From NCBI RefSeq assembly GCF_000429525.1, contig NZ_AUCA01000011.1, positions 1 through 64,000 of the forward strand: a stretch of DNA of 64,000 nt, read 5' to 3'. Below are positions 9,965 through 48,339 of this stretch, in pieces. The notes under the pieces were generated by a model, which searched no databases, was not told where the DNA came from, and saw only the letters and a program-made list of their open reading frames with translations. A program made the position numbers and the translations under genes. The stretch's first letter is position 1. Each line of letters begins with the position of its first letter. Source of the stretch: Alicyclobacillus contaminans DSM 17975 (lineage in GTDB: Bacteria; Bacillota; Bacilli; Alicyclobacillales; Alicyclobacillaceae).

Positions 9965-12946
9965 TCACTCGGGCTTTACGGCCTCCATCTGGAATGCTTC
10001 CACAACGTCGCCAACCTTGATGTCATTATACTTATCCAGCGTCAATCCGCACTCGAACCCTTGGGCGACTTCGCGTACGTCATCCTTGAAACGCTTCAGC
10101 GTATCCAGACGGCCTTCGTACACCACCACGCCGTCGCGGATCACGCGGCATTCGGCGTCGCGCGTCAACTTGCCGTCGGTGACGTAACAACCAGCCACCG
10201 TACCAACCCGGGAAATGTGGAACGTCTGACGCACCTCGGCGTGGCCAATGACCACCTCTTTGTACGTCGGATCCAGCATGCCCTTCATGGCAGATTCCAG
10301 TTCTTCAATCACATTGTAAATTACGCGGTACAGGCGGATGTCCACTTTCTCCGCTTCCGCCGCGCGCGCGGCGTTGGCGTCGGGACGCACATGGAAACCG
10401 ATGATGATGGCATTCGACGTGCTCGCCAGCAGGACGTCGGATTCATTGATGGCCCCGGCCCCGCGATGAATGACATTGACGCGAACCCCTTCAACCTCAA
10501 TCTTCTCAATGGCCTGCACCAGCGCTTCCACGGAACCCTGCACGTCCGCCTTCACGATGACGTTCAGTTCTTTGACGTTGCCCTCCTGGATTTGCCGGTA
10601 CAAATCGTCCAACGTCACGCGCGCCGTGTTCTGCTGCTGCTGGACCTTCTCTCGGTTCTGGCGTTTCTGGGCCAAATTCCGCGCGGATCGTTCGTCGTCA
10701 TACACCACGAACAGGTCACCGGCGGACGGCAGCTCGTTCAACCCGAGAATCTCCACCGGCGTTGACGGCGGCGCCTCCTTGATGCGCTTGCCCACGTCGT
10801 TCATCATCGCGCGGACGCGGCCGTACGTCTGTCCAGCCACCACAATGTCGCCGACGCGCAAGGTGCCGTTCTGCACGAGCACCGTCGCAACGGTACCGCG
10901 GCCCTTGTCAAGCTTCGCCTCAATGACTGTACCGCGCGGTCGCGCTTTCGGATTCGCCTTCAGTTCCTGGAGATCTGCTACCAGCAGCACCATCTCCAGC
11001 AGCGAATCCAAGCCTTCCTTTTTGAGCGCGGAAATATTGACGAAGATGGTGTCGCCGCCCCACTCTTCGGCCACCAACCCATGCTGCGTCAGTTCCTGTT
11101 TCACCCGATCCGGGTTCGCGCCCGGCTTGTCAATCTTGTTGACAGCCACGATGATGGGGACGTTCGCCGCCTTCGCGTGATTGATGGCCTCCACCGTCTG
11201 CGGCATCACGCCGTCGTCCGCGGCGACCACCAGAATCGTCACATCGGTCACCTGAGCGCCGCGCGCACGCATGGTGGTGAACGCCTCGTGGCCCGGTGTA
11301 TCCAAGAACGTGATGCGCCGATCCTGCACCACCACCTGGTACGCTCCGATATGCTGCGTGATGCCGCCGGATTCCGTGGCCGTGACGCGACTGGAGCGGA
11401 TGGCGTCCAACAGCGTCGTCTTCCCGTGGTCGACATGGCCCATGATGGTGACCACCGGCGGCCGTGGCACGAGATCCTCCGGCTTATCTTCCTCCACGAG
11501 CATATCCAATGCCTCTTCATCCACCGGCTCGACAACGGTCATCTCCACGTTGAACTCACTGGCCACGAGTTCCATGGCATCCGTGTCAATCTCCTGGTTG
11601 ATGGTGGCCATAATCCCTAAGAACAACAGTTTCTTGATGATTTCGGAAGGCTCCCGCTTCAGCAACTTCGCGAAATCGCCCACCGTCATCGGACCTTCCA
11701 CGGTGATGCTGGTTGGAAACTCCGGCTTGCGCTCCTCGGATTGACCACCACGACGTTTGCCGGAGCGAACGAGCTTATCTTCATTGAACTGCTCTCGCCG
11801 ATCCCGCGAAAAATCGTTGCGACTGCGCTCCCGTTCCTTCTCTTTCTCCTTCGCCTTCGACGCGGGGCTCACCGGTTTCGCGGTCACGCTCATCGGCGCT
11901 GCCGCCGGCCGTCCGCCACCGGGTCGTCCACCGCCCGGCCGACCACCGCCGTGGCCACCGCGGCCGCCACCGTAGCCCCCGGAGCGTTGACCTCCGCCGC
12001 CCTGGCCGCCGTAGCCGCCAGAACGCTGGCCGCCGCCGTAACCGCCGGAGCGTTGGCCACTGCCCTGACCACCGCCGTAGCCCCCGGAACGCTGCTGGCC
12101 GCCTCCGTAACCACCGGAGCGTTGGCCACCGCCCTGACCACCGCCGTAGCCCCCGGAACGCTGCTGGCCGCCTCCGTAACCACCGGAGCGTTGGCCACCT
12201 CCCTGACCACTTCCGTAGCCTCCGGAACGCTGGCCGCCTCCGTAACCACCGGAGCGTTGGCCACCGCCCTGACCACCGCCGTAGCCCCCGGAACGCTGCT
12301 GGCCGCCGTAGCCGCCGCGTGACCTGTTCCGATCTCCGTTACCGCCGGATCTCGGCCCCGCGTTGGTCCGGTGTCCGCCGCTTTCCGGCGCGTCTCCGGT
12401 CCCGGTGTTCATACCCTGATTGTGCTTTTCTGTCTGTGCGCTCGGCACCTCCGACCCGGTGCCCGTTTTCGTGTTCCCCTTCATGCTGTCCTCTCCCGCT
12501 GTTGCCGCCTCCCGTTCGCTCCGTGCTTCTGAACCTCTCGCGGTCTTTCCGGCCGCCGAGCCACTTCGCGCCGCGTCCGTGGCTTCTCTGCCGCCTTGAT
12601 CATTCGCGAAGTTGACGTGCGCCGATGAAGCGGTTGATCCCCGCTCTGCCGGCCAGGCGCGTCCACCGGATTCCACCGCAGCCGTGTCGCGACCGCCCGG
12701 ATGCGTGCCGGCGCGCTCGCGCTGGCGTTGCTTTTCCCGGAGCTCCCGTTCCACCTCGGACGCGTGCTTGATGGCAGCCTTCTGTTTCACATCCGAGAAA
12801 AATTTTTCTACCTTGCTGACCATTTCCGGTTCCATCACACTCATATGATTGGCCACGGGCACGTCCAGGCGGTTGAGAATGGTTAAAATCTCTTTACTCG
12901 ACATGTTCAGTTGCTTTGCGTACTCATATACTCGAAGTTTCGCCAA
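9965..12946 (-). CDS. infB: Translation initiation factor IF-2 with long Gly-rich insert
   Basis: A 993-residue GTPase that brings initiator tRNA to the 30S subunit. An N-terminal IF2N helix ([19 protein letters not shown]) is followed by a charged linker. An RSGGYG repeat tract covers about residues 208-346. A second IF2N domain follows at about 410-460, then the G domain with G1 GHVDHGKTT at about 502, [12 protein letters not shown] and NKIDKPGA, then the C-terminal domains. I chose the TTG at 12946: GGAGGTG lies 6 bases upstream, and the protein then starts MAKLRVYEY as homologues do. The start overlaps ylxQ by 23 bases. The glycine-rich insert is unusual for Bacilli and makes the protein longer than most relatives. 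Confidence 0.96.
11909..12323 (-). repeat. In-frame tandem repeats encoding an RSGGYG tract in IF-2
   Basis: Ten copies of a unit beginning RSGGYG, alternating between a long form ([13 protein letters not shown]) and shorter forms ([19 protein letters not shown]). They are followed by a [10 protein letters not shown] tail. At DNA level the long-plus-short pair gives a near-identical 69-base unit repeated several times between about 12067 and 12310. The reading frame is kept throughout. Confidence 0.9.
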
Positions 12947-13310
12947 AGGCTTCACCTCCGCCAGATTCCTTGAGATACTCCTGCATCTTCGCCGCAAAAC
13001 CTTGGTCCAACAGCGCAACGGCAGCCGTCTCCGCTTTGCCGCACGCCCCGCCAAGCGTGCGTTTATCGAACGCTACGCATAGCGGCACCTGATAGTACGC
13101 ACACTTGTCGCGGTACTTCTTGGCCATGTTCGCACCGACATCGGCCGCCATGAGCACAAGCCGCGCTCGGTTGGACTGGATGGCCCGCAAGACCGCGTCC
13201 GCGCCCACAGCCGCTTTGCGCGCCCGCACCGCCAGGCCAATCCACTGCACGGCACGCTGCCCGTTCATCGCGGAATCCGCCGCTTCGGCGCGTCCATCAC
13301 GACTGTCCAT
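12924..13310 (-). CDS. ylxQ: L7Ae-type ribosomal/k-turn-binding protein YlxQ
   Basis: A 128-residue L7Ae/L30e/S12e-fold protein, likely a kink-turn RNA binder associated with ribosomes. The core reads [18 protein letters not shown], then [19 protein letters not shown] and [18 protein letters not shown]. Two ATG starts are possible: 13310, used here and overlapping ylxR by 14 bases with GGAGGG upstream, or 13268 just before the conserved core. The extra N-terminal dozen residues are not conserved in what I know of the family. The gene is in the standard nusA-ylxR-ylxQ-infB order and its end overlaps infB. Confidence 0.9.
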
Positions 13311-46875: not shown

Positions 46876-48306
46876 CTAAACGGTCAAATTCACCCGCGAA
46901 TCGGACGCGGCATCCGGAAGCCGAAACGACTCGCTCCACGACGAGGCGCCATTGGACGTTCCGCTGACCTGGGCCAACGAAGGCGTTTGCTGACGCTGTT
47001 TCTTCGCGGACGAACCGCCGGTGTCCGCTTGTGTCAAATTCGCCTGTCCCAGCGAGACTTCCACGGACTGGAGATCGACGCCCGCTTGCCGGATCGATTG
47101 CGTCAATCCATCCGTCTGCTGCTGTAGCCACTGCACCGTCTGCCACTGATTGCCCTCCACACGAACGTGCACGCCGGTTGCCTGCTGTTGCACGGTGACC
47201 AAAATGTCCCCGAGACCTTCGGGATGAACGTGCACCTTTAATTCTCCCGGTCCCGCGGCAACCTGCGCGGCCACCAGTCCGGCGAACTGCTGTCCAGCCG
47301 CGGGATGGCTCACGTTCAGCACCGGCGATCCGAGCGTCTGACCGCTGTGTCCCTGCGCACCGACCGTTCTGTCCGCCTGTGCCACCGACATCGATGGCAT
47401 GGATGCAACGACCGTTGTCCCTGTCATCACTGAGGCGGCATCTTGCCCCAGCGTCGGCTGCCGCGCAACACCCTGGCTTCCGGGATCCGACGCATCTGTC
47501 TGTGCATGGGCCACGCGCGAGGAAGCCCCAGCCCTGCCCGGATTCACTGGCTCCGTCAAACCTTCGCTCTGTTCCTCCGATTTCGTCGTTCGCGGAACGG
47601 ACGGGTTGGGCACTGGGACAACGCTCCCTGCGTAGACCGTCGCGCCCCGCTTCACATCCGTCGGGTTTCCCTTCACATCCGTCGGGTTTCCCTTCACATC
47701 CGTCGGGTCTCCCTTCACATCCGTCGGGTTTCCCTTCACATCCGTCGGGTTTCCCTTCACATCCGTCGGGTCTCCCTTCACATCCGTCGGGTTTCCCTTC
47801 GCATCCGTCGCGCCCCGCTTCACATCCGTCGGGTTTCCCTTCACATCCTTCGTGTTCCCCTTCGGCCCGGCGTGATCTTGAATGAGGTTGTGCACCGAAG
47901 CCATTGGTTGCTCGGCGGCCTGTCCCCCATTCGACGCTGAATCTGCGGCCAACGCGACACGCGCAGTACCTGTGGATGGTGCGCTCCGTCGCACAAGCGA
48001 GCTGCCGATGGGTTCCCGGTCTTCCTTGGTCGCCGAGGCTGAAGCAGTGCGGCCAAGCGGTGATGCACCATCAGCCCTCATCCATACCCCCTTGGCCTCC
48101 GCGGACGACTGCATCCCGACGGTGTGTTCGGATGATTGACGAGGATTGTCGATGGTCTTAGCTGGCCATCCCGGCGCGGTTGTCAACCCTTGGAACAAAT
48201 CCGCAAACACCGAGCTCCCGATGTCGGACAGAAGGCTTTTTCGCTTATCCTGCGCGACGGTCGACGATTTCACTTGCAGCACCCCTTCGGCACTCCTACT
48301 GATCAT
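46876..48306 (-). CDS. fliK: Flagellar hook-length control protein FliK
   Basis: A 476-residue protein. The long N-terminal half is disordered and includes 11 heptapeptide repeats (about residues 149-225). The C-terminal FliK domain is recognisable by VHVHPEGLGDILVTVQQQAT and WLQQQTDGLTQSIRQAGVDL. FliK is exported as the hook grows and, when it is long enough, its C-terminus signals FlhB to switch substrates. ATG preceded by GGAGGTGAT. Neighbours MotE-like/YlxF upstream and FlgD downstream are typical. Confidence 0.9.
   Translation of the reverse strand: MISRSAEGVLQVKSSTVAQDKRKSLLSDIGSSVFADLFQGLTTAPGWPAKTIDNPRQSSEHTVGMQSSAEAKGVWMRADGASPLGRTASASATKEDREPIGSSLVRRSAPSTGTARVALAADSASNGGQAAEQPMASVHNLIQDHAGPKGNTKDVKGNPTDVKRGATDAKGNPTDVKGDPTDVKGNPTDVKGNPTDVKGDPTDVKGNPTDVKGNPTDVKRGATVYAGSVVPVPNPSVPRTTKSEEQSEGLTEPVNPGRAGASSRVAHAQTDASDPGSQGVARQPTLGQDAASVMTGTTVVASMPSMSVAQADRTVGAQGHSGQTLGSPVLNVSHPAAGQQFAGLVAAQVAAGPGELKVHVHPEGLGDILVTVQQQATGVHVRVEGNQWQTVQWLQQQTDGLTQSIRQAGVDLQSVEVSLGQANLTQADTGGSSAKKQRQQTPSLAQVSGTSNGASSWSESFRLPDAASDSRVNLTV
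47632..47862 (-). repeat. 21-base in-frame tandem repeat in fliK
   Basis: Eleven consecutive 21-base units encode heptapeptides. Seven are KGNPTDV or KGDPTDV exactly in pattern, preceded by a KGNTKDV and KGNPTDV and interrupted by KRGATDA, and the run ends in KRGATVY. The units are nearly identical at DNA level, with no spacers between them, and the frame is preserved. This looks like a recent or actively varying repeat within the ruler part of FliK. Confidence 0.92.
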
Positions 48307-48339
48307 CTTTCATCACCTCCTTTCACAACCCGAGAACGG

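Follow-up and report, generated by a model that had tools for sequence, protein, structure and literature searches.

The window, that is, the whole 64,000-nucleotide stretch of Alicyclobacillus contaminans DSM 17975 DNA analysed here, carries a fliK gene among other flagellar genes, and the N-terminal part of the encoded protein contains a tandem array of short in-frame units (Table 1). FliI, FliH, FliG and FliF are encoded upstream of fliK on the same strand, with two other frames intervening, and flgD (FlgD, PF03963) lies directly downstream. Beyond FlgD, the same strand encodes a FlgG-type rod protein, FliL, FliM, a CheC/FliN-type switch protein and a response regulator (all by Pfam), and NCBIfam recognizes a TIGR02530 flagellar protein after FlgD. 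The gene is fliK, as the initial annotation had proposed, by its Pfam domain, the predicted fold of its C-terminal domain and its gene neighbours. The Flg_hook domain PF02120 is matched at residues 346–423 with an E-value of 1.5e-11 and a score of 44.4 bits (cut-off 29.8), while none of the NCBIfam models matched the protein. Searches of the source genome with the whole FliK protein and with PF02120 returned a single match each. A single-sequence structure model of the protein is confident in the C-domain only (pLDDT 77–84 for residues 351–420), and the top two of its 1046 Foldseek hits are 2RRL, the FliK C-terminal domain, and 5CUK, the switch domain of PscP. The best match, 2RRL, has an E-value of 1.8e-4, a TMt of 0.41 and an rmsd of 29 over a long alignment, a poor overall value because the alignment extends past the domain; 5CUK follows with an E-value of 2.7e-3, a TMt of 0.64 and an rmsd of 3.3. 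By sequence, phmmer found no relatives of FliK in the PDB at E-values up to 0.1.

Table 1. Features of the fliK gene and its repeat array, in window coordinates.
Feature	Position	Strand	Basis or remark
fliK, 476 aa	46876..48306	-	ATG start at 48306; open frame, Pfam PF02120
Shine-Dalgarno sequence AAAGGAGGTGAT preceding the fliK start	48312..48323	-	Seen in the sequence itself
C-terminal export-switch domain (Flg_hook), residues 346–423	47038..47271	-	Pfam PF02120; predicted fold similar to 2RRL
FADLF, residues 34–38, candidate export-gate recognition motif	48193..48207	-	Fits F-x-x-x-hydrophobic
Array of eleven in-frame 21-base units, residues 149–225	47632..47862	-	Tandem Repeats Finder and in-frame reading
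Higher-order repeat, exact 88-base copies 47650–47737 and 47713–47800	47650..47800	-	Shift of 63 bases, equal to three units
Divergent unit 3, KRGATDA	47800..47820	-	Variant bases common to unit 11
Divergent last unit 11, KRGATVY	47632..47652	-	

Close to the N-terminus, the FADLF segment fits the pattern F-x-x-x-hydrophobic, which we take to be the one recognized at the export gate. A phenylalanine followed at this spacing by a hydrophobic residue and starting at residues 25–50 occurs in 159 of the 179 FliK frames compared below, a count for a short pattern that is given without a shuffle control. Early export subunits are described as having a gate recognition motif (PMC8983047). The 405-residue FliK of Salmonella comprises a ruler (residues 1–207), a linker (208–267) that is also part of the ruler, and a switch domain (268–405) (PMC6972891). 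The window's protein resembles it in its C-terminal switch domain, its long and poorly conserved N-terminal part and its flagellar gene setting. The two differ in that the window's FliK has a 77-residue array in its N-terminal part, whereas the Salmonella protein is described, in the part of PMC6972891 available, without a tandem heptad array. The array is separated by 110 residues from the candidate export motif and by 120 residues from the switch domain. Since it lies between these two elements, it belongs by position to the measuring part of the protein, and its original placement in the ruler part is thus upheld with Salmonella as the reference.

Eleven in-frame 21-base heptapeptide units had been reported at this place, and Tandem Repeats Finder (TRF) together with a reading of the minus strand gives the same array. 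TRF delimits it at 47650–47863, with a period of 21 bases, 10.2 copies, 90% matches, no indels and a score of 351. Read on the minus strand from 47862 down, the first six heptads are KGNTKDV, KGNPTDV, KRGATDA, KGNPTDV, KGDPTDV and KGNPTDV, followed down to 47632 by KGNPTDV, KGDPTDV, KGNPTDV, KGNPTDV and KRGATVY. With up to three mismatches, the consensus unit occurs nine times in the window, each time within the array, against an expectation of 0.01, and none of 100 shuffles reaches nine; chance is therefore excluded. Lys and Asp each make up 15.6% of the 77 residues and Gly and Pro together 24.7%, at a net charge of +2, and the structure model gives the array a pLDDT of 35–41, a low confidence that does not establish disorder. 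The units had been called nearly identical, which is true of eight of the eleven (units 2 and 4–10, at most one base apart from each other) and not of units 1, 3 and 11, which are 3, 6 and 10 of 21 bases, respectively, off the common unit. The higher-order repeat consists of an N-D-N triplet of units present twice, then one further N unit, and units 2–3 match units 10–11 exactly over 44 bases at a shift of 168. We infer that this pattern is the trace of repeated block duplication inside the array. The hint of recent variation seen in the near-identity of the units is hence borne out as far as recent duplication inside the array is concerned, which their homogeneity shows, and not as variation among living strains. 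A mobile or dispersed repeat was considered and rejected, since the source genome has no significant second match to the array (next best E-value 0.1, over 20 bases).

To place the array among its relatives, FliK frames were collected at two levels. The family set comprised 41 genomes, 38 of which, counting the window's own, match Flg_hook. It yielded 40 other FliK frames from 37 genomes, of which 38, including two from G029, were used to compute the length figures and two were additional copies, L043 and L044; eight weaker second-copy Flg_hook rows were left out of this set. Several family genomes have two or three Flg_hook matches. In the wider class search, 209 of 299 genomes, family members included, have a Flg_hook match, and 138 frames from 137 genomes, the stronger matches among those listed, were added; three distant loci that had been retrieved with FlgG as the query were left out. 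The only congener compared (G001, at one genome per species) gave no FliK match, and its FliI matches are distant ATPases of 31% identity or less, against 66–70% in five other family genomes tested. The searches for these two proteins suggest that the congener may lack flagella.

Among the 40 other family FliK frames, neither a periodicity scan nor TRF found the window's array, and a repeat common to the relatives is rejected for these frames. In the protein-periodicity scan, the window's FliK reaches an identity of 1.00 over 28 residues, and the highest values among the 40 family frames are 0.68 (L044, at a 24-residue period) and 0.46 (L029), with a per-protein shuffle maximum of 0.39 for both. 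L044, a second FliK-like frame of G030, has a 72-base in-frame repeat of 2.6 copies at residues 95–156, in its N-terminal part. A blastp search with the 77-residue array found no hit among the 178 other FliK frames at E-values up to 0.01. A heptad array of its own, with 2.9 copies of a 21-base unit of consensus GAAAACAAAGCGGAACAACTT, is present at residues 58–77 of the FliK of another genome (L115, G139); blastp reported no similarity between it and the window's array.

Tandem arrays scoring at least 80 in TRF occur in seven of the 179 FliK N parts (168.6 kb) and in none of the 179 C parts (70.9 kb). The periods of the seven (18, 18, 21, 21, 33, 42 and 72 bases) are all multiples of three, and the window's array is the largest by both copies and score. 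At the same threshold, arrays were found in two sequences among 303.2 kb of flanks of the same loci and once in the remaining 62.6 kb of the window. Without the window's FliK, which was picked for its array, the comparison of N parts with flanks stands at six to two, and weaker arrays (TRF scores of 50–79) are present in C parts too. The FliK N-terminal part thus gathers in-frame arrays now and then, and this enrichment may reflect no more than low-complexity sequence. One array outside FliK lies in the flank beside fliK at L147, with a period of 52 bases, 7.1 copies and a score of 577. Within the window, infB (9965–13054, minus strand) contains a Gly-rich tandem repeat of IF-2 ahead of the GTPase domain at 11962–12317, with a period of 69, 5.1 copies and a score of 506. 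Like the FliK array, it is made of short units repeated in tandem and in frame within a stretch of low complexity; no role in measuring length is known for this segment of IF-2.

With the array, the N part of the window's FliK measures 344 residues, and without it 267. In 38 family frames the N part has a mean length of 322 residues (sd 42, range 236–452), with 30 of the 38 at 344 residues or shorter and three at 267 or shorter. The 138 class frames give a mean of 312 (sd 42), with 86% at 344 or shorter and 7% at 267 or shorter. In these surveys start codons were set by a script rule and domain starts by profile match, and single lengths can be off. Without the array, the window's FliK would stand at the short end of the length range; with it, the protein stands above the middle. 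It need not restore a required length, because 267 residues are inside the family range and the protein with the array is somewhat longer than usual; both lengths being within the range of the relatives, the comparison gives at most a hint of selection on total length. Following the array, the remainder of the protein gives blastp hits over the C domain among the 178 other FliK frames at E-values up to 0.01.

What such a segment might do can be estimated from Salmonella. Engineered FliK variants of 363–785 residues still control hook length tightly, at a gain of 0.2 nm per inserted residue, whereas the two shortest variants have partly lost this control (PMC6126814). At this rate, the 77-residue array would correspond to 15.4 nm of hook, one unit to 1.4 nm and the 63-base block to 4.2 nm, although the figure was obtained with alpha-helical inserts and a Gly/Pro-rich array could contribute more or less per residue. 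The engineered proteins are a fitting comparison in that FliK tolerates added residues and the hook lengthens; they differ in carrying artificial alpha-helical inserts from YscP, whereas the window's FliK has a natural, Gly/Pro-bearing repeat (PMC6126814). Wild-type Salmonella hooks measure 53.8 ± 5.6 nm (PMC6972891). Single-unit steps should therefore be nearly invisible, as 1.4 nm is less than this scatter, and drift in copy number should for the same reason be easy. The earlier suggestion that hook length could change by slippage or recombination without loss of function is accordingly credible in view of the engineered proteins (PMC6126814), with the restriction that a single-unit step would be a coarse and noisy control: the case for tuning by slippage is better for block steps than for single units, and a duplicated 63-base block is a likelier step than one unit.

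Taken as a whole, the locus is probably best read as an otherwise ordinary FliK with a lineage-specific in-frame minisatellite as a spacer, the copy number of which sets hook length coarsely. The array would have grown by replication slippage or unequal recombination, and its growth would have been tolerated because 21-base steps keep the frame and because the region is of low complexity and poorly conserved. The heptads may serve as a flexible, export-compatible spacer. During the passage of FliK through the growing hook, this spacer would delay the moment at which the C-terminal domain meets FlhB and would so give a hook about 15 nm longer than with an array-free FliK. Hook length would thus follow copy number roughly, and the gain or loss of one unit would be nearly neutral. 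As a counterpoint to the simple length reading, some deletions in Salmonella FliK loosen control or lengthen hooks through weaker binding to FlgE or FlhB (PMC6972891); such deletions do not appear simply to rescale hooks, and length alone is probably not everything.

An unlikely alternative is that the array is neutral filler, situated in a part of FliK that is not read as length, or balling up or looping, so that copy number drifts with no effect on the hook. The wide spread of N-part lengths among the 38 family frames agrees with this, as does the poor conservation of the N-terminal sequence, residues 1–148 having matched none of the 178 other frames by blastp at E-values up to 0.01. It is opposed by the Salmonella work, in which N-terminal insertions and deletions as well as linker deletions shift hook length (PMC6126814, PMC6972891). 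There is also a small chance that the copy number is in part an artefact, a 63-base block having been collapsed or expanded by the assembler. The source assembly is a draft of 111 contigs, so that the 63-base blocks may have been miscounted, and within the 231 bases of the array a stretch of 88 bases recurs exactly 63 bases further on; the D variants nevertheless anchor the array, as do units 1, 3 and 11 through their divergence, leaving its existence firm and only the exact count in doubt.

The array could be a contingency locus, its copy number changing so often, mainly in three-unit steps of 63 bases, that hooks of different length, about 4 nm apart for each step, coexist in a population; we consider this improbable. 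If true, the flagellar joint could be tuned in a way that is inherited and can be reversed. It is very improbable that the array acts as a periodic binding ruler, in which each heptad is a weak FlgE or FlgD site in the hook channel and export is slowed or the hook sampled repeatedly. In its favour are the uniformity and charge of the middle heptads and the binding of FlgD and FlgE by the N-terminal part of Salmonella FliK (FliK-N) (PMC6972891); however, recent duplication predicts the uniformity equally well, the 40 other family frames have no similar array, and blastp matched the array to none of the 178 other FliK frames. An action of the repeat at the RNA or DNA level, through an mRNA hairpin or an antisense frame and not through the protein, is hardly credible and a special RNA structure is rejected, since the fold of the array RNA (-78.9 kcal/mol, z -5.2, with none of 200 dinucleotide shuffles as low) is near in stability to that of any such tandem array (of 400 arrays each, 52 fold as stably after permutation of columns and 41 after permutation of codons), and the two antisense frames open through the array (47379–47885 and 47443–47940) are a trivial product of a 21-base period, which repeats any stop-free frame.

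Rulers of type III secretion systems with repeats are already known. YscP of Yersinia enterocolitica has three repeated motifs (of 14, 25 and 46 aa) in strain-dependent number, and its size is linear with needle length (PMC3469391, citing Wagner 2009). The window's FliK is similar in having in-frame repeats in the ruler part, as judged by position. In contrast, YscP belongs to the injectisome and not the flagellum, its repeats are longer and different, and its strain variation is documented, while the window's FliK is known from one genome. For FliK, no report of natural tandem-repeat variation was found in the open-access literature, among the matches listed and in the parts available; two papers on Treponema mention FliK only in passing. 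Given that YscP already shows a ruler of this class to vary in its number of repeats, the FliK array is an understandable curiosity and not a new kind of system. If hook length follows the number of units, the array would be a natural modular ruler for the nanometres contributed per non-helical residue, which is beyond the reach of helical engineered inserts; if it does not, part of the FliK N-terminal region would not be read as length. The array further suggests a route by which the length of the ruler may evolve in small in-frame steps.
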